NCBI GenBank assembly: GCA_028753945.1
Contig: JAPNXP010000001.1
Location: 2,656,501 to 2,720,500, forward strand
Direction of reading: 5' to 3'
Source of the DNA: Hexactinellida sp. DTS-2022
Taxonomy: Eukaryota > Porifera > Hexactinellida
DNA: 64,000 nucleotides
In this document: positions 1,593-48,669 of the stretch, piece after piece
How the letters are laid out: every line of letters begins with the position of its first letter
Position numbering within the stretch: the stretch's first letter is position 1
Notes under the pieces: model-generated
What the model was told of the DNA's origin: nothing
Seen by the model: only the letters and a program-made list of their open reading frames with translations
Database searches by the model: none
Program-made: the position numbers and the translations under genes

Positions 1593-4472
1593 CGTGAACT
1601 AAGTAATATAAGGACTGGAAACGACAAAGAAAAACTGGACAATGGATAGGTTAGGAGGGTATCCCTCTCCTCCATTATTTCCTCATAATTGCCAAAAGTA
1701 ATGTAGCTATTATTGTATTTTACCTTATGGTTGCATAATATTATTATTTTCGTCATAATAAGCAACCTTAGCTTAAATGGTTTAGTCGAATCTTTTCCTA
1801 TGTGAGTCCCTACCCTTTTCCTCGTAACTTTACTGTGCTGAACTATACTACATATTCTTTTATCTTTTCTAAATACTGTAGTACTAGCAAAGCATTTCAT
1901 GCCTAATAATTCTGTTTTTGGATGCAAGACCAACTACAAAGGTCATCCGAAAGCCACTGTCTTTAGATTACCAAAGGCCCACCTGAATTAGTTCACGATT
2001 GGATCCGAGCTTTATATAAAACAGGAACAGAAGACTTACAGTTGGATATCATTTTCATCTGTATTCACCATATTCGAGAGATGGACCAGAAACGAGTAGA
2101 CAGAGTCTTACATGCTGATGGTACTTACTCTGAAGTACCACGTGAAAGACCTACTTATCGTCTCAATGTTGCTCCTGTAATTTTTCAAGGTTATCCATCT
2201 TATTTTACCTCCAATTCTGCTACTTGTAAGCGTTATAGCCGAGAATCAAAGGAAGAAGCACACTTTGCTAAAAGTCTCAAGTATAGTTTAATTGAAGAAA
2301 AGCATGAAAAATTTATTTACTCTTTAGATTGTTCTGAAGATCTCAGACAAAAATTATCCACCTTGAAACTAAAACAAGATTGGGTCATTTGGTATTCTTC
2401 TAAACGTTACATATACTCAGGCTGCAATCGTTCGATTAGTTCGTCAGAGTTGAATCCACTCTTGCAATTAATTCAGATATAAACGTCTCAGCTAATAGTT
2501 TTGAGCAACATTCACCTTTGCCACTGGATAAAATAAATCACCAGACTGCTACAAATTTTAACAATCATTAGATTGCCTATTCCTTCCGACAACAAAGTCT
2601 CTTCGTCTTCTATCATCGAGTATTGGATTGGAAAATGAATACACTAATTTGCTTAAAAACATAACTGCTGATTTTTTAGAGAGGGAACGGCATCTTGTAC
2701 TCAACATGGACGAAATCCACGTTGCATCAGATATCTCGTACCAAAGTAGTGCGAGCATACGTGTGTAGTACATATAATACAATTTGACTATGCAACTACT
2801 TAGAAACTTTATATATTGTCTGTGATTTAGGTGGAAGAATAATCGGAGAGATATATCCTACAACTACAACTAAAAAAGTTTTTGCTCTGATGGTGTCTAG
2901 ACATGCTCTTATTTCCTTCAATTTACGATATTAGTAAATCGAATGAGGCTATGTTTGAGGATATTCGTTTACTGTACAAGTCTGAAAACACTCGATGGTT
3001 AAACAAGCCCACAGACTGAATTCTAGGGCATGTTGGCCAACTAGCTTTGAACGCCAGAATGTTAATGTAGCACTCCGCGTTTTCAATGATTCAACTTGTG
3101 CAGCTCTTAAAATACAGAACGATTCACGATCAAGGTTTAAAAACGATACTCCGAATTTCGTGGATATTATTGGTAAGATATGGAAGATCTTCAATGTGAA
3201 TACTTCCCTTAAACATATTCACTTGAATTATATATATTCTGCGCCACTTACGGAAGACGATTGGCGTTTCGGTTTTCTTAACTTAATCTCTAATTGGATT
3301 GAGAGATGGAATTATCAAATGGCAAGATTGGTAAACTTAGTGCTCAAACATTCGGAAGTTTGCGCCATTCTTGTATTACTCTGCCACTAATAGTTTCTCA
3401 TCTGATTCAAAATTGCAAGTTTAAATATGTTCTTACTTCCAGGCTTCAAAATTATCCAATATAACACCAATTCGGATTATATCGAATGATGATGGCAGCT
3501 CAATACCATGTTACTTATTCCCAAATATTAGAAAGTCAACGGCGTATGAACATTTAGAATATTCGTAAATTGTTTTCACAACAACAAAACAAGAGTGAAC
3601 TATCCCTTAGAAGATTTACTCAGTCTTTTACTCTAGCACCAGATGAATACAATAAGATTTGTTATGATCAATATCTTGGTGCGTTACATGATCTGAACTC
3701 TATCAAACTTGAAATTCTTATTCTCCAATATTTTGTCTTTATTGGAGGTTACGCTGTTTATTCTTACATTAAAACTTCAAAATGCCAACACAGTCTTGTA
3801 TCTCTTACTGAGAACAAAGATATAGATTTAAGTGATGCTGTTAAATTTGACTTGATAAAGTAAGTTGATCGTGGTTCTCTGAAGTGGCCCTCAGATCTTG
3901 TCGTTGACTCCATAGTGGTCTTATGGAAAATTTTCATTAAAATTGATGATGATGAGATATTGAAAACGCAATATTAGCATTTTACACATCCCCTTCGCGT
4001 ACAATATTAATTCAGTTAGCTGAAAGAGTGCTAGTGATTGAACAGAGTGAACACTGGAGAACCTACTGCGCTCATTGCAACATTTTAGATTGGAGGATAT
4101 TACACAAGATTCTTAACATATGCGGTAATTGCATATTAGATAATAAAACTAGAATGAGAATTCTTATATAGCATAGAAAAAGAAAGATACACGTAAATTC
4201 AAGAAATTTAAATCTACGTGAATAATGCTCGAGTCTCCAGTTAATTATATGAATAATAATTGCTGTACTAGTATTTGACAAATGTAATCATGTTTTGTTC
4301 ATTGAATTACTTTTTTCTGTAGCTCAATATTTGCGAAATAAACATTATAAGAACTTCATGTCCTATATTTACTTTTTCTATCGAAGATAAATGTAAATTA
4401 GTTTACCCTTCTAACATAACCATGGTCCATTTTATATTTGTCGTTTCCAGTCCTTATATTAAGTAGTTCACG
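1593..4472 (+). mobile_element. P-like (THAP) DNA transposon, 2.88 kb, degenerate
   Basis: Terminal inverted repeats of about 69 bp (1593-1661 and 4404-4472) begin CGTGAACTA and share AATATAAGGACTGGAAACG exactly. A 7 bp direct repeat flanks them. The interior holds a P-type transposase pseudogene in the same orientation. TIR length, TSD length and coding content all agree with the P superfamily. The gene has several frame breaks, so this copy is not autonomous. It is inserted at the edge of the Transib-like relic. Confidence 0.88.
1899..3962 (+). pseudogene. P-element-type transposase with THAP domain, broken
   Basis: The ATG at 1899 opens MPNNSVFGCKTNY, a THAP start in which the usual first zinc cysteine (position 4) is Asn; the second (C9) is present. 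After a frame break near 1985 come HDWIRAL (conserved Trp), CIHH (the C-x2-H pair) and NVAPVIF in place of the AVPTIF box, all in the frame at 2042-2482. NMDEIH (near 2704) matches the catalytic-Asp block of P transposases. At 2995-3390 the ERQNVNVALRVFND block and a DDWRFGFLNLISNWIE block are typical of the P insertion domain. At 3570-3863 GGYAVYSYIKTSKC and, after a stop, DRGSLKWPSDLVVDSIV give the C-terminus. At least four stops or frameshifts interrupt the frame. Confidence 0.85.
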
Positions 4473-4479
4473 ATCTTAA

Positions 4480-4870
4480 TAACAGCAACTCAGATGTATA
4501 TACGACTAGAGTAATTTGATTTAAAGGGCCGATAATTTACCACATTTAACAACACATATTTTTCAAATTTACAAATTTGGTAATTTAGTAACATCATCAT
4601 GATGTCATAACGGAAATTTCTTTTCTAGATATCGATATCCCATATGTAAATATTACATAATTTGTGTCTATTGTGTATATAGATGGCTGTTTCCTGGAAA
4701 ATCCCATTTTAAGCCACTGTGTTCGCCAATCTTACATCCTAAAAAAATAAACAAATCATCTAACTGAATGTGGTCTGAATAGTTATATAAAGTCTACTAG
4801 AACGTAGTTAACGAATTCAACAATATCCCCTTGTCCGCATAATAGCTTTAATCCAATTTAGAATACCGAA
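4480..4870. other. Non-coding A+T-rich stretch
   Basis: No open frame with protein-like composition, tRNA fold or terminal repeat was found. It holds only short chance palindromes, such as GATATCGATATC near 4628. Confidence 0.6.
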
Positions 4871-5023
4871 TTGCTATTTTTCGTCGGAATCATCGTGTCT
4901 TTATAGCCTGCTTTTAACATAGTTAAACACGTTCTAAATGTTCCAATTTAGAACATTTAGAACGCGTTTAACTATGTTAAAAGAGGGCTATAAAAACACG
5001 ATAATTCCCACGAAAAATAGCGA
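4871..5023. repeat. Near-perfect 150 bp fold-back (hairpin) repeat
   Basis: The left arm (4871-4942, from TTGCTATTTTTCGT to GTTCTAAATGTT) is matched by its reverse complement at 4951-5023 with few mismatches and a loop of under 10 bases. The shared core includes TTTTAACATAGTTAAAC and GTTCTAAATG. This is a fold-back MITE, or could yield a long hairpin RNA if transcribed. No coding content. Confidence 0.8.
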
Positions 5024-5176
5024 TTACGTAATCAAATGGTGATATAACACAATTCTAAAGGGTGATATGTATGCCTTGATATCATGTTCCTAACTACCTA
5101 AACAATTATAATGCATTGCTCAGGTCAGTCATTACTAGCTATTGAGATAAAGATATGTCAGCTAATAATCAATGGC

Positions 5177-5618
5177 CTAGGGTGCGACCCGTGCGGGCTT
5201 TATTGTAAATCACAGGCTGCGGGCCTTTTTCCACTGGCCGCGGGCACAAAACGGGCCGAAAAGAGTCAAAAAGATCAATTGTTAATTTTTCAATAACATA
5301 TAAATGTAAAAGTCTAGATGCACTATAGCTACTAACTTCCACCATTAATAGAAAGAAAAAGGAAACAACTAACGAAACTATCAAAGTGTTGCCGGTATAA
5401 AAGTTTCATGTATATACTATTTCCGCATACGATTTCCCGCAACATATAACGCGGAAATTATATGAATTCAAAATTACTAGAGAATATTTTCACGAATTCA
5501 GCCAACGGTGCCATAAAATAAACAAATTTCCTAAATCGCGGGCTGGCGGAATAAATAAGCGGGCCGCGGGCTTTGAATAACGGGCCACGGGCCACGGGCT
5601 TTACGGGTCGCACCCTAG
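5177..5618. mobile_element. hAT MITE, 442 bp, exact 8 bp TSD
   Basis: Both ends carry CTAGGGTGCGACCCGT (16 bp, identical in inverted orientation). The duplication TCAATGGC is at 5169-5176 and 5619-5626. Sub-terminal CGGGC/GGGCC words recur inside. The 8 bp TSD indicates hAT-type mobilisation. It contains no transposase; short open frames across it are chance products of the repeat. Confidence 0.92.
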
Positions 5619-5626
5619 TCAATGGC

Positions 5627-7230
5627 CTTTAAGTAATCCATGGTTCCGAGTAGTAGTAAGGCCTTATATAACGAAGTACAAGCATCTATTAATTAATAAT
5701 TAATTAATAGACAATAGAATTATTAATATACTTCTATCCTACATGTATTGTTATTGATCAATTAGTACTATTGTTGTCAGCGATGTACGCATTCCATAAA
5801 AGTAGGCATTATTTTGTCACTTTATTTTCTGTGTCTCTATTATTACATTATTATATAACAGTACATAGGTAACTTTGTTGACTTCTTTGATAATTGACAT
5901 ACTTAAGTATTCCGGTTGAAAATGAAATATCTCAACAACTCTTATGGCTCCCTAAAGACTGTGTTGCCCCATTGTAGTCAATAATTTCGTGTACCACGCA
6001 CTTTAGAAGCTTCTATACGTTCAGTGGTCATAGTAGTCCTCAAGGAGGTTAAAAGCTGTTTCCATATCAGGCAACTATATGATGTTGTTTGACCTGCCCT
6101 GGAAGACACAATTCCAAACCAGGAACCCGAAACTTAAATATTACAATTGAACGATGGCACGAAGATAAAAGTAGCTAAACTTTATACTCCATAACTGATA
6201 TTTCGCATAAATTAACGTGTTCATAATAACTATACTACACTGTACTAATAATTATCCCGTGCCCAACCTGTTAAAGAATTTCAACATGGATCCATCTAAC
6301 AAATACTTAGAAATGTATTATCACAAAAGTGGTAACAAAATATGTCATGGATTTCTAAGAAATATGGGAGAGAGAACTCATATTATAGCGAGAGTAAAAT
6401 TCCGTTAAAAGATTCTAACTTGCTGTTAACGTTAGATATGTGTTGTTAACAACAAATTAGAACAGTTAGCTGCAGCTTATTTACTCTTATTTGCAAAAAG
6501 GTGTTGTGGCTAGATTTAAATGCTCATCACCACAAGATAAAGTACAATTATGCAGATTGAGGGAAAAAGATTTATAGTTAAGAGCGGGTTTCTAGAAAAT
6601 CACAAAATACCACAAAACAGGAGTATACCTTCGCGATGAGGTGGGTGAGTCGAGGCATGCGCTATGGGTCATCAAACTCAGAAGGTTTGATTCATCAAAG
6701 AATTCTCAGTGCGGTTTGAATATAAGATGTTGTTCTTAACAAAACCTAATGCCTGGATCTCGCTCATTTGTATATACAAAAATGACATAAGTCATCCCCT
6801 AGATGGTACTCCAATTGACACCTCAGAAGGGTGCTTTCTATATATACATCGTCTTCTAGCTACTTGCAAATCCACGGGATAAATATGCCGATGAATAAGT
6901 GCAATCCCTAATTCCTTTTCTGCACAAAATAAAATTGAGTTGGTAGGCTTAGAAAAGTGCAGAACCCAAAAAATACTGAATTGATCGTTATGGATGAAAA
7001 GTAAATTAAGGAATATAATCCTCTTGTGCAAAAAGCTGAAATATCAACGTAGAATTTGTGTATTGGCAGCGCGTTTTGGGCCATCAACATTTCAGTCTTC
7101 TCATAGTTGACATGAATAAAAATCTGTTAGTTTAAACAAACTGAGCAAAGAAAAGAAATGTATATGTAATAGTGAAAAATAAATTTAAATAATACATAGT
7201 TTACTCCTAGAATATTCTGTTCAAACTCAC
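5627..7230. other. Non-coding stretch; probable kinase-gene intron or flank
   Basis: No gene recognised. A 26 bp A+T palindrome lies at about 5685-5710 (CTATTAATTAAT and its complement). If the kinase gene continues beyond the exon at 7231-7418, this is intron. A minus-strand stretch near 6790-6919 has a good acceptor but no kinase motif and is not called as an exon. Confidence 0.5.
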
Positions 7231-38480: not shown

Positions 38481-39936
38481 TATCAATGTGTTACTAGGGG
38501 TAGGAGATTATTAACATAAAAGATTTCTTAGGGGACAAATTCGAGTAAAATGCTAAAACAAATAGATTCGCTAGAGAAAAAATAAATTATTATCAACAGT
38601 GTATCCCCGCTTCCGATAATGGTTTCGAACGGATCGCATTCCAATTTATGCTCCTAAATTTACAAAGTAGCCCGTTCCCCACATTCGGCATTTAGAGGGA
38701 AATAGGATATAAATTTTATCACCTTAGACAATTCTTTAATATTTTACCATTGAATTCAGCAGATATTATAACAAATAAATGCATATCTAGATAGATATCC
38801 ACCGGTTATATTGGTTCTTATGGTGATGATTCTTTTGTTCAAAATGAACAGTAAGAATTTTGATTCTGTGGTTTTCTATTGTGGAGAATTTCAAAGAAAA
38901 AAGAAATGAATAGAGGATAGTTATATTGACTAATGCATAAATAATATATTCACCCAACCTTTAAATAGTATATTGTGATACTGGTAATTAATAGTGGCCC
39001 GTCGTATGCAGGTGTTTATATTGTTTCAGGACGCAGAGTACTATGTTATATGTTTAGTTTGGATTTAAAAGGTTTGGACTTGATTTGTTCGGATTATCAT
39101 GGTCTCATTTTAATGAGGCGGACACCATATTTTTTTAAATCGGAACAACTATGTTCCGATTAGCGAGGGTGCATTGTATTTGGATTACATTTGAAAGACT
39201 GAATCTGAGGTCACTATGAACATGTTTAGAGAGAGCAGCAGGCCGGATAACTTCGCCTGGCGGGCCAGATCTGGCCCTCAAACCCAGGGTTGCCGACCCC
39301 TGACCTAGAGGAAGCAGTGCTCAATCAGCGTATACTTTTATAATAGCCACTATTTTCAGGAAATAGAATACACTGTATTGATTTTCGTAAAACATGGGTA
39401 AGATCTTTACATACATGCCTACAAACTCATTAATACGAACACCAACTTATGGTAATACTTTGTTCGTAATATTCGAGTTCTTATAACCAGAAGTAATACC
39501 AATTGAATAGCTATTGTAGCTACCTGTTCTGTGGACCTGTTTGTTCGTCTTTCTCGGTAAATTGTATTAACCGTGTTCGTCTAAGGAGGTTCTACTATAA
39601 TATGGAAATATCCGTCGAATACAAGATAGGAATTGGTATAAATTTAGTAGCAGTCGACTCCGCTTAATAGAGCCACTAGTTAATAGTTTTCTCGCTTATC
39701 GGTTCTAAATTTCTCAGGATTTCTAGGACGGAATGATTTTTTGCTTAAAATAGAGCTTGGTTGGCATGTACGCCCTGGGAAGATAAAATTTGTGCGCATT
39801 ATACTAGTGTACTTACTAAGAGACTTTACACAATATTAAGATAGATAAATTTACTAAATTGGTTAAAAAAATGAGCACTACTAAGCCGAAGTACGTGCTA
39901 ACCCAGGTTCGTGCAAACCGATTTCTACTTTAGTAC
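38481..39936. other. Non-coding stretch with solo transposon ends
   Basis: It holds a solo hAT terminus at 39262-39297 (inverse CAGGGGTCGGCAACCCTGGG), the damaged pogo copy at 39650-39760 and no supported gene. Confidence 0.5.
39650..39760. repeat. Truncated pogo-type MITE
   Basis: GCAGTCGACTCCGCTTAATAG is followed by TCGCTTATCGGTTCTAAATT and TCACAGGATT-like sequence as in the 16885-17154 copy, then similarity stops. The right TIR is absent. Confidence 0.65.
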
Positions 39937-40745
39937 ATATGTATATGTATACAAAGCGAAATTAACTCTGTCAATTGAAGGTTAATCAATTTTTAATGCT
40001 GATATTAGTAATCAGCATACAATTTACAGTCATTATAGGTGCCACATGACCATGCTTTGGTTGGGGCATTCGTTGACAACGCTGGAATGTGACACATTCC
40101 ATTCTCAATTATTGTTTCTACCCTATCGTGTGACCTCTCTTTCTTAACTATGCTTATTTACACGGTCTAAGATGTCATTTACACGTTTCGCTAGAGCGGG
40201 CTTTTTTCCTACTTTTTCCTAAATTTTTTGGACGTCATCTTCAAAATACTGTAATTTCGTGTTGCCTCCATATCCTATCTTTTAAAAAAATATTATCTAT
40301 GTCTGTGCCAATTTCATGCTTGCATAAAAAATTGAACAATTGGTACAGTATTGGCACATACATAGATAAAATATATCAAAAGAAGATATGGATGTATCGT
40401 GAAATTATATTATTTTGAGGATGGCGACCAAAAAGTGTCGGAAAAGTTGGACGAAATCATTCTATGGCGAATGCTTTCTAAATGATCTTGGAGACTGTTT
40501 TTATAGTCACAGTTATTCTCAGATGATTATGCGGGAAGAAAGAGGGCCACTCGATGGGGAATAAACTATTTCTAAGAATGGAATGTGTCACATTCCTGCG
40601 TTGTCAAGGAATTATTTTGTACAAACACAGTCAATGTGACCCCTATAATATTGGAAACCTATGCTGCTTACGAATCTCAGCATTAAAAATTGATTGAACT
40701 TCAATTGACAAAGTTTATTGCGTTTTATATCCATATTTCTAAGAT
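39937..40745. repeat. 800 bp fold-back made of two element ends
   Basis: The first arm (39937 to about 40345; includes TGTCAATTGAAGGTTAATC, GAATGTGACACATTCCATTC and CTATGTCTGTGCC) is repeated in reverse complement from about 40345 to 40745 (CATACATAGATA ... TTGATTGAACTTCAATTGAC). The second arm is also the inverse partner of 47540-47960, across the coding region. So it is both a fold-back and, in its right half, the left TIR of the large element at 40345-47960. Confidence 0.8.
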
Positions 40746-42720
40746 GTATAACATATACTTGCGGGCTAAATAAATATATTTATTTTCTGCACTTGGTATT
40801 TTTTCATATTGTTATAAAATATTTCCTTTACTTGCAAATTACTGTCAGAATTAATTAATAATTTTGTGATTCTATTTTGACTTATTTGCTCTAGTCCATT
40901 GCACGTTCAGGATAACATGTCTTCCATTCAAAAATTCAACTTAGATGATCCAGAGCATCTGAGGACATCAGTTTCCGTGCATCAAGTTGAAATCAACTGG
41001 AACCTGTGTGTCATGTGCCAAGAGTACAATGCAGAGCAGCTAACATGTCCTTCACAGTCGAGAAGATCTTATGTTGGGAGTGGATACACTTCACTGAGCT
41101 GAAAACCTAATGAAATTCAGCGAACTTGGTCAACTTCCACATACACTCAAAATAGATAGACTGGATCAAGGGGTCGGCATTGAAGCCACCTGGTTGTACA
41201 CAATGCACAGTATCACAAGAAGTGCCAACTCAAGATCAACAACACTATGTTGAAGAGAGCTGTAAAACGGACACTTGAAACTGAAGGTCATTGCCAGGAC
41301 GGATACGAATCAGGAGTATACAAGCACATGAGGTCACAATTTGGATTTTCTGAGAAGTGCGATCCAGAAACATTGTGCTTCTTCTGTAAACAAGCAGCTG
41401 GTGAAGAAGGATTCCGCACAGTATTAACGTTCCAGCTAGACACCTGGGTGCGGGCCTGTGCGGGATTCTTGACGACACAAAGGCTGCTTGCCAGACTCAG
41501 TATGGGAGACGTTGTGGCTCTGGAGGTTAAGTACCATGCCAAATGTTTAGTAAGTTTGGACAATCGAGCAAGGAAAGCAAAGGCTGCAGAATCTCAGAAA
41601 TTGCTCGTGACAGGGAAATAGATCCCACTGTCTACGCCGAATTGGTTTTATACATCGAAGAAACACGTTTTGCGGCGACTGTACCGGTGTTAAAACTGGC
41701 TAATATTGCACGTCGATACACGGCTAGGTTGGAACAACTAGGAGTCAAAGTAGATGGGAGACTTAACACGACACGACTGAAAGAACGACTCCTGTCACAG
41801 ATAACAGATATGAGCGGCCATAGGAAAGGGAAATATGCTATTCTTGTGTTTAATGAAGATATTGGTCCTGTGATTACCACATTCTGCGAGTTAGACAGTG
41901 ACAGAAATGCGGTGTGTCTTGTTCGAGCAGACATGTGGTCCGCCGCCAAATGTTTCAAGAAGTTAAGCCTTTCACTGGTTTCGCAGATGGATGCCAAGGA
42001 TCTGTCCACAAGTACTGCTTGGCCTTGTGAGAATGATATTGGATGGTGCCAGTATTAATGAAAACGTGACACACACGTCGACCGCAGCACTAACGATCTC
42101 CCAGTTGATTAAGTTCAATAGTGTCAAGCAGAATCGGACGCCTGGGGCAACAGTCTATGTAAATTTCCGGCACACACCATCTCAGGAGACACCTTTCCCC
42201 ATCTACTTAGGGTGTTCATGCTCACACACGCAAGAGGGAATTGGTTGACAATCTTTATCATTTTGGGATTAGCATTCCATATGACCGTCTTCTCCGAATC
42301 TCAGCACAGATGGGAGACAACGTCTGCCAGCAGTTCCTTCGAGAGCAAGTAGTTTGTTCTATAAAGATGCGAGGCAGTGTATTCACAACTGCTGCTGTTG
42401 ATAACATAGACCACAATCCCAGTTCAACAACAGCTAAGGAAACCTTCCATGGTACAGCTATCTCATTATTCCAGCACCCATCATTCACTGGCGAAGGAGT
42501 TAATCGGAGTCTCGTGATCGCAGAAGGATCGGAAAAGACAAGCGATAGGAAGATCGTCATAAACTTGCCGTACGACTTTACTAACATTCCAATTATCACC
42601 AGCACCATTACAAATCTAACTATCCCACCTCCTGATGTGGTGTATTTGTGCCGAGAAGGCGTCACAGAACATAGAAAGACTGAATATCTGTGGTTAGAAC
42701 ATGTCAGGCAGGTCCTTGAA

Positions 42721-43212
42721 CAGTGGCGGCGCCAGAATTTTAATCAGGGGGGCTCTGGGGGGGGCAGGGGGATTTCAGGGGAGCACAATTAATTTATATT
42801 TTTATGCTCCATTGGAGACTATAGTATAAAGTTTAAGAAATGCATCAAATTTATAGTAATAAAGGAGCTACAGCAGAGGAGGGAATTGTCGATTGGTACA
42901 GAGGTGAAGCGGTTAAGAATACTTGAATTTTCATAATTAGAATAAATAAAAATTATTTGCCATTTTTTTATGAATATATAACTTAGATAGTGAATTGGTG
43001 AATACGAAATGAAAATAAATGAATTCCAATTACTATTATATGCTTACATTTTTCAAATATTCATTCAAATTCAAAGGTATAGGGACAACATAATGTAATT
43101 TCTAAATTACAACCTCGTGACATGTAACATCCTTATGAGGATGATATTCTATTGCAGCTCATGGGGGGGCTCAGAGGGGGGGCTCGAGCCCCCCCTCATG
43201 GCGCCGCCTCTG
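42721..43212. mobile_element. hAT MITE, 492 bp, exact 8 bp TSD
   Basis: CAGTGGCGGCGCCAGAATTT at the left and CAGAGGCGGCGCCATGAG inverted at the right. TCCTTGAA is duplicated at 42713-42720 and 43213-43220. G-runs lie just inside the left end and G/C-runs inside the right. It interrupts the transposon gene after VRQVLE; removing it and one TSD copy joins VLE to RFDVESV. Confidence 0.95.
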
Positions 43213-43820
43213 TCCTTGAAAGGTTTGATGTAGAGAGCGTTTCACACTAACCGTCAACCACCAAAAGGTCAAATGATATGCCCCACTTCTTGGCGCCCAC
43301 TGTTTCTTGAGAGAGCACACACAATTGCTATGATCCGACATTCAATGGACGTTTTACAAAAATGTATTGAACATTTTAACCCAGGACAGATACCAGTAAT
43401 CACTTTCGACCAAGCCCTGTTTGACTTGGCCAAGAAAATTCAGTGGAAGTGGTCAGATAAATACTGAGAAAATAAAATAGTGGTAATATTTGGTGGTCTC
43501 CACATCAAGTTGCAGCCCTGAAGATGGTGGTGACAGGCTGCAAGGAAGTGGTTGGGTTCATGCATTAGTGCAAGCTGAGATCACAACACCAGGGACAGCT
43601 GATTCGTTCTTGCACGCATCCCACATCACACGTACAAGACTAGCACACCAGGTAACCGTATCTTCACTATACATCTTACTAAACGAGCCTAAGACAGAAG
43701 CTGTCAGATACACTCAGCTGAGGCAGGTGAGACGGAAAACATTGAAGGCTAGTGTCATAACAGAACACATGCATATCCTAAATTTCATTATTGGACAACC
43801 GTGCTGGAAATAGAAGTTCT

Positions 43821-44423
43821 GGGCCCGTATTCACTAAGAAGTTAAGTACGTACTTAAGTACTAAGTATGTACTTAAGTCGTATTCACTAAGATTGGTATT
43901 CACTAAGATTTAAGTGTGTACTTAAGTACATACTTTAGTACAAAACTTAAGTAACCTACTAAGTTAACGTAACTTATAAGAATATACTTTTATTGACTCT
44001 TTAGACGTTGGTGTTTAATTAGAACATTGTATTAGATTTCTAGTAGTACTTTGCTTTACTTCAGGTGAAGTTTATGATTCTATTTTCAACATTTATTACT
44101 ATTGGTTGTTGTTTTCTAAAAGTTCTGTTTTTTCTCAGGCACACAAATCACAGGAACTTCATTGAGAATATTTTTTAAGTTAAAAGAATACAGCAAGCTA
44201 TTACAAATAGCATTCCATACACTAATATGCTATGCTATTAAATATAATTTAATAAATATAATTCAATTTCGTACTTAAGTACGTACTTAGTTAAGTATGT
44301 ACTTAAGTACAACAATATTTCTTAGTGAATACGACTTAAGTATGTACTTAGCTAAGTACGTACTTAGTACTTAAGTATATACTTAGTACTTAAGTACTAA
44401 GTAATCTTAGTGAATACGGGCCC
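43821..44423. mobile_element. Harbinger-type MITE, 603 bp
   Basis: GGGCCCGTATTCACTAAGA is present at both ends in inverted orientation. Both sub-terminal regions are runs of TACTTAAGTACGTACTTAAG palindromes with extra TATTCACTAAG motifs, the same architecture as the Harbinger element at 11499-13527, with which it shares GTATTCACTAAG. No coding content. The 3 bp TSD expected for Harbinger is not visible (TCT against TGA). Confidence 0.8.
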
Positions 44424-44427
44424 TGAT

Positions 44428-44729
44428 CATAGGCGTCGTTGCAGGGGGGCGGGGGGGGCCTGCCCCCCCCCGAAAAAATGTCGGGGGGGGCAGCATAGGT
44501 CTCGCCCCCCCCCAGATTTCGCATACCTGCCAACCTATTTGAGTCATGTCCCTGTACAGGGCTCCAATTTTCCCCTGTACATTGGCCAAAATCCATGTAC
44601 ACACCCCCAAAAATATCTCGCTCGCTGCGCTCGCTCGTCCAAGGAATTACTATTCACTTACATTGCTAAATTAGTACTGGGATAGGAGAAAGCATTGAAT
44701 TATATATTGTACAGGGAATCCCTGAACGC

Positions 44730-44766
<37 letters not shown>

Positions 44767-45180
44767 AGTTGTGCCTTTATGTGGCCAATGCAGAATGCAC
44801 GGCAGAATATACTCTCATCACTGTAGACATTTTAGGCATTATTTGAAACATAATTAGTAAATTAAAAATCGCCAAAAAAATGTTTAAATCCCTGTACTGT
44901 ACGGGGAATCCCTGTAGGTTTGGCAAGTATGCTTTCGTCCCCTCAGCTGGCGTTTCTCTTGAAAATTAGTTGAAACAGTGGAGGATAACAGCATTTAATT
45001 TGCCAAAAATTTCAAGTTACATAAAGCTTTCTCAGTAAATTTGCATCTCTCTTACGTTATTTATTTACTATTTATGCGTGATTTTTGCGCATTAATTGCA
45101 AAATAAAATAAATGTCATATAAATGTTCTCTGGATGCCCCTCCCAGATTTTCAGAAAAATTGTAAAGTTCGACGCCTATG
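44428..45180. mobile_element. hAT-type MITE, 753 bp, exact 8 bp TSD
   Basis: The ends CATAGGCGTCG (both, inverted) are flanked by GCCCTGAT at 44420-44427 and 45181-45188. The TSD overlaps the last bases of the Harbinger MITE, proving the order: Harbinger MITE first, this one second. It contains G/C-runs, an about 36 bp (AT)n run near 44727-44762, and a TCGCTCGCTGCGCTCGCTCG word. A truncated relative lies at 60640-61010. Confidence 0.93.
44727..44762. repeat. (AT)n microsatellite
   Basis: An uninterrupted AT dinucleotide run of about 18 units inside the MITE at 44428-45180. Confidence 0.9.
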
Positions 45181-47539
45181 GCCCTGATACTCATTCTCTA
45201 CGGTGGCATCATAAAAATGTATCTCGACGCCCTGACTGAACTCGCCTGCTGGTTCCACGCTCTGGATAGTATTTGCATCCAAGTCCACCTGAAAGACATG
45301 GCTGAACTTTCAACAAAACACCCAGATGTTGCCGCAAAATTCATGGTTGGCAACTTCACAGCTCAGAAAATCCAGAGTGTTCTCTTCAAACCCAATTGAC
45401 CAAGTACATGAGCAGAACAACGCCCTAATTGAAGGGGGCGGTTGTGCAGCTGGTGTTGTAGGCCTTACTGATAACCCAAGTGCCCTTCGGAGTTGGATGA
45501 TTGCTGGACCAGAAATTGTATCGGCAATACAAGAGTTTGAAGATGAGTACCTGCACAGGAGAATGCAAATGGATACACAGCACCACGATCAGATATACAA
45601 TGTGCAGACCGCATTTACCAAAGATGTCATACCCCTTGCTAGTGTCATAGAAGATCTCGGCAAACCATTCGAGGAAGAAAGCCTGAACCTCATCGTTCTC
45701 GACTCCAAAGAAATTGTAACTCCTGCAGAGGTCGATGCTGTCCGGAACTTGAAGATGATTGGCAAGGTGCAGTTCGACACTTCACCAGAGAGCATCTGGT
45801 AGAAAGAACGAAGCCCACTAATGACATCATAAGTAGAAACAATCTCAAAGTTTTTGTCAAACCCAGGCCGAAGAGATCAAGTAATGGGTAACACCAACTA
45901 GCGTGTCTGAAAAATAACGTCGGACACTTTTCGCGGCTGTACATTGGTTGTCAGACCAGGGACAGAAACCTAGAGGAGTTTCTTCGACATGAGAACCAAG
46001 CATTCCCTCCAGCACTCTATGATGATGGTAGCCTGCGCTTAGGCACTAAGAGTGACCTGCTTCAATGCCTAAAAAGCATATATAAGTCCATCTTGATGGT
46101 CCTGTTACAACCTGTATAGTGATTGATCGTGCTGCCATAGTTCACATGTTGAAGCCGGGTACTGCAAAGAAATTTGATTAGTGTGCTAGTCAGATATTAA
46201 TTCCCTACCTGGCCACAAAACTGAAGCAAGTGTCACGCCTGGATCTAGTGTGGCACACCTATAAGCAGGATTCACTGAAAGGAATGGCAAAAAGAAAACG
46301 AGGACAAGGAGTGCGCAGACGTGTTCTAGCTGAAACTGCAATAAGAGGAAATTGGCCAAGTTTCCTCTGTGTGGACTGTTACAAGACGGATTTCTATAGG
46401 TTCCTGTCTGAAGCTGCCCTCCAGTTGTTCAACATGGAGGGTAAACAGCTAATTATCACCGATGGAGAGAGAGTCCTCAGTAATTTGCCAATATATGATC
46501 TGGCATCACTCGCACCATGCAACCATGACGAATCCGACAATCGCATGTTGCTGCATGTGTCACATGCTGCGCATCATGGCCAACGAAAGATCATGCTTCG
46601 GACAGTTGACACAGACGTTGTGGTATTGGCCGTATCTGTGGTAAAGGAGCTGCAATCTAAAGATGAACTCTGAGTGGCATTCGGAACTGGAAAAAGTTTT
46701 CACTTCTTGGCAGCCACGAAATGGCAACTGGGCTTGATCGTCATAAGGCACGGGCATTGTCGATGTTTCGCGCTCTGACAGTGAGCGACACTGTATCCAG
46801 CTTTGCTGGACATGGTAAAATACTTCCTGGGCCATCTGGGCAGCATTTCCAGAATTAACAGCTGCGCTACTGAAAGTCTCTCAGGGCCAACTATTGTAGA
46901 AGAGTGTGTCATGCATACCATCGAAAGGTTTGTATCCTCTTATACGACCGAAAAAAGTAACAACTCTAATATAGCTAGACAAAAGATGTTGCCAAGAAAA
47001 ACAGCGTGCAGTTAATTCCACCAACAAGGGCAGCTTTAGAACAACATATTAAGAGGGTAACCTAATCAGGGAGGTCATGTATGGGGGAAGACAATTCTAC
47101 CAAATCCAAAACTCCCTTGCTCCGATAACAGGGGATGGACCAAGACAAGTGATAACTTATACGAACCATATTGGACAAAGCGATCCGAGGCATCAATGGC
47201 TTGTCACGAGCTTGTTTCATGCAAGTATAAAAGAAAAAATATGAAGCGATAAACTTGCAGAAAGGCTGAACTTCAATGTACGGCCTTATGTAGGTGTGAG
47301 GAAAACTGTTCTTCTACCAGTGATAGCTAGTATGTAATTATGTATTGTTGGCCAATTATAGACTAGACCCCGTGTTTGACATCGTAGCAATTTATTTATA
47401 ATAACTCATAAACTATATGTGATATTTACGTATTTGGTAAATTAGATATGACTCCTCTAAAAATCAAAGTTTCAACTAGACATCAAAGTCGATACCATAA
47501 GATCATTTTGATTCATATTATTATATTACGGACGCCATC

Positions 47540-47960
47540 TTGGTGCAATCAACTTTGTCAATTGAAGTTCAATCAATTTTTAATGCGGAGATTCGCAATC
47601 AACATAAAATATACAATATTATAGGGGTCACATTGACTGTGTTTGAGGAAAAGAAAATTGCTTGACAACACAGGAATGTGACACTTTCATTCTTAGAAAT
47701 AGTTCTTCCCCATCGAGTGGGCGTATTTCTTCACCGCATAATCATCTGAGAACAACTGACTATGAAAACAGTCTCCGAGATATTTAGAAAGCATTCGCGA
47801 GAGAAGGATTTGTCCGACTTTTCCGACACTTTTTTGCCGCCATCGTCAGAATAATAAAATTTAACGATGCCTCCATATCCATATCTTAAAATATATTTAT
47901 CTATGTCTGTGCCAAATTTAATGCTTGAATCAAAAATAGAACAATTTTATTGCTATGCTG
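47540..47960. repeat. Right long TIR of the 40-48 kb element
   Basis: It begins AACTTTGTCAATTGAAGTTC and runs through AGGAATGTGACACTTTCATTC, CCCCATCGAGTGG, CGCATAATCATCTGAG and CTATGTCTGTGCC. It is the inverse of 40345-40745 and the direct homologue of 39937-40345. Similarity ends near GAACAATTTTATTGC. Confidence 0.8.
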
Positions 47961-48669
47961 CCCCACTATTTGGGCAAGTAGGAATGTAGTTTTGCGGAAA
48001 CCTGATCTTTACGCACAGTTTCACCGATCTGCTTCATTTCTCATGTACCAATAAATTTAATACAATATATTTGGACAGATCACATATTGCTATGGACAAT
48101 CTACAACATGCCAAATGGATACTGGAATAAATAAAGTACTCATTTTCTAATTTTTGATTTATTTTAATAGTATGAGCAATAATAATTTCCATATATGGGT
48201 ATGTATATTAGATTACGTCATTGTGGTTAATTCCAAAGTGAAATCATTCTCAAAGTATTTTAGATGTCTAGCATATTTGATAACCTAAGTTTAGTTTATT
48301 CCATGACAATAAGTTATTCATTTTATGAGCAATTAGATAGTAACACTGGCCTGAAAATGAAATGAGCAAATACTTGACATATCTAGCCGTTTTCAGTTTA
48401 CTTTAAATTCAGTTCGATAAAAGGACAAAAAAATATTTAAGTTGGATTTCAGTATCAGTTAGCAGCACTACATATCATTAAGTTTATTAATTCTGGCACA
48501 TCAATATTATTATTATGAGTGATTCGTGGTTTAACAATAAAATACCTTGAAATTTCAAATGGGTCATGGGTAATAGGTGACGAATCCGTGACTCATGACC
48601 CATCTGAACCATCGGTTTAGGTGACCCAACTGACCCATGAGTTTTCCTGAATTGGGTGTATTCGGTCCG
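47961..48669. other. Non-coding stretch with GGGTCATGGGT repeat
   Basis: Only one oddity: at about 48560-48645 ATGGGTCATGGGT and its inverse TGACCCAT words recur, possibly an eroded MITE. No gene seen. Confidence 0.5.

Follow-up and report, generated by a model that had tools for sequence, protein, structure and literature searches.

The locus described here raises the question of whether a decayed, multi-domain gene and the long inverted repeats on either side of it belong together and, if so, to which class of mobile element they should be assigned. It lies within a 64,000-nucleotide stretch (hereafter, the window) of contig JAPNXP010000001.1 of Hexactinellida sp. DTS-2022 (positions 2,656,501 to 2,720,500), in which the original prediction placed a large transposon of unassigned class with long terminal inverted repeats (TIRs) at 40345..47960. 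The gene and the TIRs belong together because related copies in the same genome hold the gene between TIRs of their own, with 3-bp target site duplications (TSDs); the link proposed in the prediction was thereby upheld. The window element is a dead copy, and we consider it most likely to derive from a cut-and-paste DNA transposon with long TIRs that is of Academ type (AcademX-like), with Academ compared by description only.

Inverted arms of approximately 400 bp flank the decayed gene, as predicted. Positions 40351-40721 aligned with 47545-47915 at 86% identity over 377 columns, and the coding blocks listed in the prediction were present. The two arms are as follows:

40350..40740, + strand: left terminal inverted repeat, lacking its outermost ~50 bp
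47545..47968, - strand: right terminal inverted repeat, intact tip CTGCCCCACTA

The arms exceed chance because a search of the genome to which the window belongs (112.4 Mb, 18 contigs) listed, apart from the query, 40 places matching the window TIR at E <= 2e-42; two of these are in the window (the right arm and an upstream arm). The right arm reaches 47968 and terminates in an exact 15-bp tip common to related elements, whereas the left arm stops short of a tip. Accordingly, the arms within the predicted span are real, and its ends required correction: the right end is 47968, and no transposon tip marks the left boundary. Since the left tip has been lost, the target duplication of the window copy itself cannot be read, and the evidence comes from its relatives.

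The gene is repeated in this genome, with at least 129 matches to its DTD block and at least 56 to its VDNIDH block (E<=0.001), both counts including the window. No relative was confirmed in viral and prokaryotic contigs searched with one protein or alignment A1. Four gene copies (L055-L058) were fetched at 9 kb; the criteria for their choice (a long frame, a TIR-like flank or closeness to the window copy) make them a non-random sample. Inverted repeats were present on either side of the gene in all four, with lengths (and identities) of 85 bp (78%), 431 bp (98.8%), 271 plus 190 bp (98-99%) and 353 bp (81%). In a second, distant lineage (lineage B, L063/L064), the gene lies between its own 329-bp TIR (97%). 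A second arm was also found in two (L026 and L039) of five further gene copies that were tried by predicted position. The arms of L039 were 77% identical over 188 bp, and its left tip was not found.

The better preserved relatives are 5.6-6.5 kb in length, have long inverted repeats and start with TAGT (TAGTGGGGCAGC in the window's family). Among gene copies of the window lineage (lineage A), the tips all start with TAGT and diverge further in, and an exact 3-bp TSD was present in 4/5 (L055 ATA, L057 TAG, L058 AAT and L026 AAA); for L055-L058, the duplications were identified by visual inspection of the flanking sequence. Lineage B elements start with TATACGGGGAATCTG, and 3-bp TSDs (TAA, AAC and ATA) were found in all three copies with both tips; the left tip of a fourth copy (C11, 5.2 Mb) was not found. 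The third group comprises 16 gene-less relatives (L009-L024), which are 2-3.6 kb in length, except for L009 with a nested insertion, mostly have interior segments in common and carry the tip TAGTGGGGCAGCATA. Both exact tips were present in eight of these loci, and the 3-bp flanks were identical in all eight (ATA, ATT, ATA, TAA, ACT, TAA, TTC and ACC); L011, L014, L015, L018, L019, L020, L021 and L024 lacked one or both exact tips and were outside this count. Across the three groups, these exact duplications are 3 bp long and vary in sequence.

Duplications of approximately 3 bp are also characteristic of CACTA/EnSpm and PIF/Harbinger elements, and the letters TAGTG/CACTA occur at the tips. Nevertheless, we regard membership in either group as highly improbable. 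The 5'-TAGTG of the tips runs in the reverse sense to that of CACTA elements, lineage B starts with TATACGGGG, and DDE_Tnp_4 and Transposase_21 were absent from the Pfam hit lists of the gene frames, this profile search being limited to Pfam.

The prediction expected other copies to carry the same TIRs with a TSD of fixed length. The copies have TIRs and 3-bp TSDs; however, the TIR sequences have mostly diverged. The TIR of the gene-bearing L057 was 76% identical to that of the window over 114 bp, and the TIR of L056 showed 71-72% identity, across roughly 110-120 bp, with those of the gene-less relatives. Within 1.5-kb flanks, the window TIR was matched at E<=1e-5 in just one (L053, the same place as L057) of the 29 gene loci L026-L054. 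Thus, coding blocks lacking these particular TIRs do occur, which the prediction held to be damaging; they are harmless because other checkable copies carry their own diverged TIRs. A scan for the downstream tip gave <=3 mismatches in 25/34 loci versus 6/34 for the reverse-complement motif and 6/34 for shuffled sequence. The set is not independent (L025 is the window, and L055-L058 repeat L029, L027, L053 and L040), and this result is supportive only. At L044, a tip motif with one mismatch lies opposite to the expected orientation, about 0.5-1.5 kb downstream of the nuclease block, and perhaps belongs to a neighboring element.

An alternative explanation is that a host or other mobile gene was caught between unrelated fold-back arms. 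It draws on the many TIR-bearing elements without the gene (L009-L024) and on the three remaining copies tried by predicted position (L030, L037 and L038), in which no second arm was seen in 850-900 bases at the predicted place. The latter result weighs against our own reading, as do the flanks of L056 (CTA vs GTA), in which only two of three TSD bases are alike. However, in each of the four copies examined at 9 kb, as in lineage B, the gene is enclosed by distinct TIRs of its own, accompanied by 3-bp duplications, which largely contradicts an accidental association already, and we assign it a very small probability. The gene-less elements, which the prediction also counted as potentially refuting, have the same tips, likewise with duplications of 3 bp, the pattern that non-autonomous relatives should show.

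One gene-less locus, L009, is a 7-kb element with window-type TIRs and contains a 532-amino-acid frame with a weak Pfam RAG1 match (E 8.6e-5, under the cut-off). A RAG1-like transposase was considered for the TIR family and rejected; we take this frame to be a nested, separate transposon because it lies in a stretch (3561-7066) that was unmatched by the other fetched elements, while both sides of this stretch were matched. L009:3998-5593 (- strand) represents a separate RAG1/Transib-like family with at least 86 genome matches, including itself, and some frames over 700 amino acids. The best PDB relatives of the frame were 6pqn (E 2.5e-20) and RAG1L 6b40 (E 4.1e-9).

The remaining features of the window copy and its surroundings are listed below.

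39806..40341, - strand: separate arm from a related element, in inverse orientation and without its outermost ~22 bp, abutting the left arm
40881..42058, + strand: N-terminal gene part with cysteine zinc-like motifs; open reading frames in several frames, matching the N-terminal frames of L055, L056 and L058
42211..42720, + strand: putative transposase core, first part (VDNIDHN ... FHGTAIS), aligned across lineages
42721..43212, no strand: nested insertion 1, between 8-bp repeats TCCTTGAA
43234..43810, + strand: putative transposase core, second part (TFDQALF; GSGW; GTADSF), frameshifted, aligned across lineages
about 43818..44426, no strand: nested insertion 2, a fold-back with GGGCCCGTATTCACTAAGA arms
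44428..45180, no strand: nested insertion 3, between 8-bp repeats GCCCTGAT
45189..46119, + strand: gene middle region, by tblastn to L026-L058; matches the relatives' part with the DUF6589 end and beyond
46098..46858, + strand: FEN/XPG-like nuclease region, two in-frame stops and one frameshift

The blocks named in the prediction are on the + strand, spread over several frames with in-frame stops: VDNIDHNPSSTT plus FHGTAIS at 42211-42720, GSGW at 43487-43810 and DTDVVVLAV at 46182-46670. The window copy is dead because of its three nested insertions, frameshifts, stops and lost tip. The insertions at 42721-43212 and 44428-45180 have inverted ends in addition to their 8-bp flanking repeats, and from this duplication length we take them to be hAT-like. 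The fold-back between them has ends of GGGCCCGTATTCACTAAGA and arms rich in ACTTAAGT.

The arm at 39806-40341 belongs to the TIR family of the window element and points the other way. It is most simply read as an older neighbor because its identity was 71% to either arm of the window element (the two arms themselves being 86% identical) and 75-81% to the gene-less relatives. At 40342-40350, two inverted TIR arms meet a few bases apart, each without its tip. A deletion may have taken both tips, and the junction is possibly the footprint of a failed or composite transposition.

In the relatives, the encoded protein combines an N-terminus containing zinc-like motifs with a core of DUF6589 and, at the C-terminus, a FEN/XPG-like nuclease part; long frames measure 1166 amino acids in L055 and 924 in L063. 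Judged by profile matches, the middle of the gene in related copies is Pfam DUF6589 (PF20231). This model scored above its curated cut-off at six genome places, all of which lie 1038-1083 bp from a DTD-block match, and the 924-amino-acid frame of L063 matched it at E 4.5e-10. The gene pieces of the window copy had no DUF6589 match in the Pfam scan. No other Pfam family exceeded the cut-off among the remaining gene frames scanned, and nothing significant was obtained for gene frames from NCBIfam (5 proteins) or PHROGs (4 proteins). Candidate acidic residues of the transposase (in VDNID, DQPLY and GTAD/GSAE) are in register in both lineages, apart from an N at the second motif in L058 and ICD at the third in L055. 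We infer that these residues may form a DDE/D triad.

These negative searches leave some room for a long-TIR superfamily distinct from Academ, with the 3-bp TSD and FEN-like nuclease in common and DUF6589 as the defining transposase. Searches of the gene frames against Pfam, NCBIfam and PHROGs yielded no transposase model, and a literature search for DUF6589 or PF20231 revealed no link to transposons, the only return being an optics article, taken as a chance match. However, the TSD length, nuclease motifs and size agree with descriptions of AcademX, and we consider a distinct superfamily unlikely. A further reading, in which DUF6589 would form the catalytic core of DNA transposases that make up a widespread superfamily non-homologous to published Academ transposases, with a FEN-type nuclease processing hairpins of the long TIRs during transposition, appears similarly unlikely; if it is true, a set of orphan invertebrate proteins becomes transposases.

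The prediction saw a hint of a PIN/FEN-type nuclease in the DTD block. This stood at the level of motifs, and Pfam, profile and PDB comparisons were weak or negative. The C-terminal part contains seven acidic positions (D; D; E-x-D; D-x-D; and the D of GCD), corresponding to the metal-binding residues of FEN/XPG nucleases, which occur in order in L055 and L063. In a 27-row alignment, which includes several near-identical copies, each position was acidic in 92-100% of 19-26 informative rows; in the nuclease region of the window copy, the acidic site EAD is ESD. The gaps between these positions were 43,93,2,24,2,57 in L055 and 41,97,2,20,2,55 in L063, and the corresponding gaps in host proteins were 44,64,2,19,2,49 in GEN1 and 49,72,2,19,2,53 in EXO1, these names being our own reading of host proteins found by Pfam XPG_I. 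The score of the 27-row profile against host XPG-family proteins (25.3) exceeded those of 59/60 column shuffles and of the reversed profile (18.2); one shuffle scored 134.1, which is unexplained, and we regard the result as suggestive only.

Several results weigh against a FEN/XPG assignment. The seven positions were selected visually. Pfam scans of the gene frames yielded no match to an XPG model, and the XPG_I model hit six other places in the genome, none of which is a gene copy. Profile comparisons with host XPG-family proteins were weak, both with 12 rows (probability 5%, E 0.0076; 16% identity over 76 columns) and with 27 rows (probability 3%, E 0.014). The best PDB match of the profile was HflX (E 0.0013), a non-nuclease, and AlphaFold2 on the nuclease region of the window, run as a single sequence, gave a confidence (pLDDT) of 35.4. 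PDB searches with alignments A1 and A3 and the L063 frame returned no nuclease or transposase. The C-terminal part, thus, looks FEN/XPG-like at the motif level only, and by these comparisons the similarity is too low for profile proof of the fold.

We infer that the DUF6589 region acts as a DDE/D (RNase H-like) transposase and that the protein containing it would bind the long TIRs and cut at their tips. Insertion with a 3-bp stagger would then generate the TSDs that were observed. The flap-type nuclease probably trims or resolves flaps or hairpins arising from the long TIRs. The gene product presumably mobilizes in trans the gene-less 2-3.6 kb relatives, which have the same tips.

The present results tie a DUF6589 and FEN-like protein to defined transposon ends and 3-bp duplications in one genome and in two diverged lineages. 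They provide a basis for annotating as a likely transposase an orphan protein whose domain has so far had no known function, and they raise the question of the role of a flap-type nuclease in cut-and-paste transposition. If the element is Academ, as is likely, its class is already known, and the outcome is a useful annotation and not a new kind of element.

Among known systems, the closest in description is Academ, a known but little-studied transposon group. The superfamily and its AcademX lineage were reportedly described by Kapitonov and Jurka in 2010 and by Kojima in 2020, and the AcademX nuclease is of the XPG type; a literature search pairing Academ with XPG found nothing. The element, left unassigned in the prediction, fits AcademX because of its length of 5.6-6.5 kb, 3-bp TSD, FEN/XPG-like motifs and lack of a helicase match. 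In the portions of the sources consulted, AcademX has TSDs of 3 or 4 bp and AcademH of 9 or 10 bp, a difference tied to nuclease versus helicase (PMC10045372); Academ has a mean length of 5565 bp in bivalves and is treated as DDE/D (PMC10294476); and it is listed with the DDD/E superfamilies (PMC9587614). The present elements resemble AcademX in their TSDs, in TIRs flanking a large putative transposase gene with a nuclease-like part and in a length near 5.6 kb, a likeness in described features. Membership in Academ is, thus, likely and not proven. AcademH, placed in the same superfamily in part of that literature, differs in its 9-10 bp TSDs and helicase (PMC10045372); the TSDs here are 3 bp, and Pfam scans of the related frames gave no helicase match.

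The Pfam family DUF6589, a domain without an assigned function, matched the gene middle over the cut-off at six copies and differs in that the window pieces were unmatched. CACTA/EnSpm elements have a 5'-CACTA tip, whereas the tips here are 5'-TAGT and 5'-TATACGGGG. Kolobok elements duplicate TTAA, whereas the duplications here are 3 bp of varied sequence; their terminal bases are given as RR..YY in part of one source (PMC9587614), in contrast to the 5'-TA start of the present tips. Host FEN/XPG proteins (GEN1 and EXO1) differ from the C-terminal part in their 16% identity and in the lack of a Pfam XPG match on the side of the element; however, they share with it seven acidic residues in the same order and at similar spacing.

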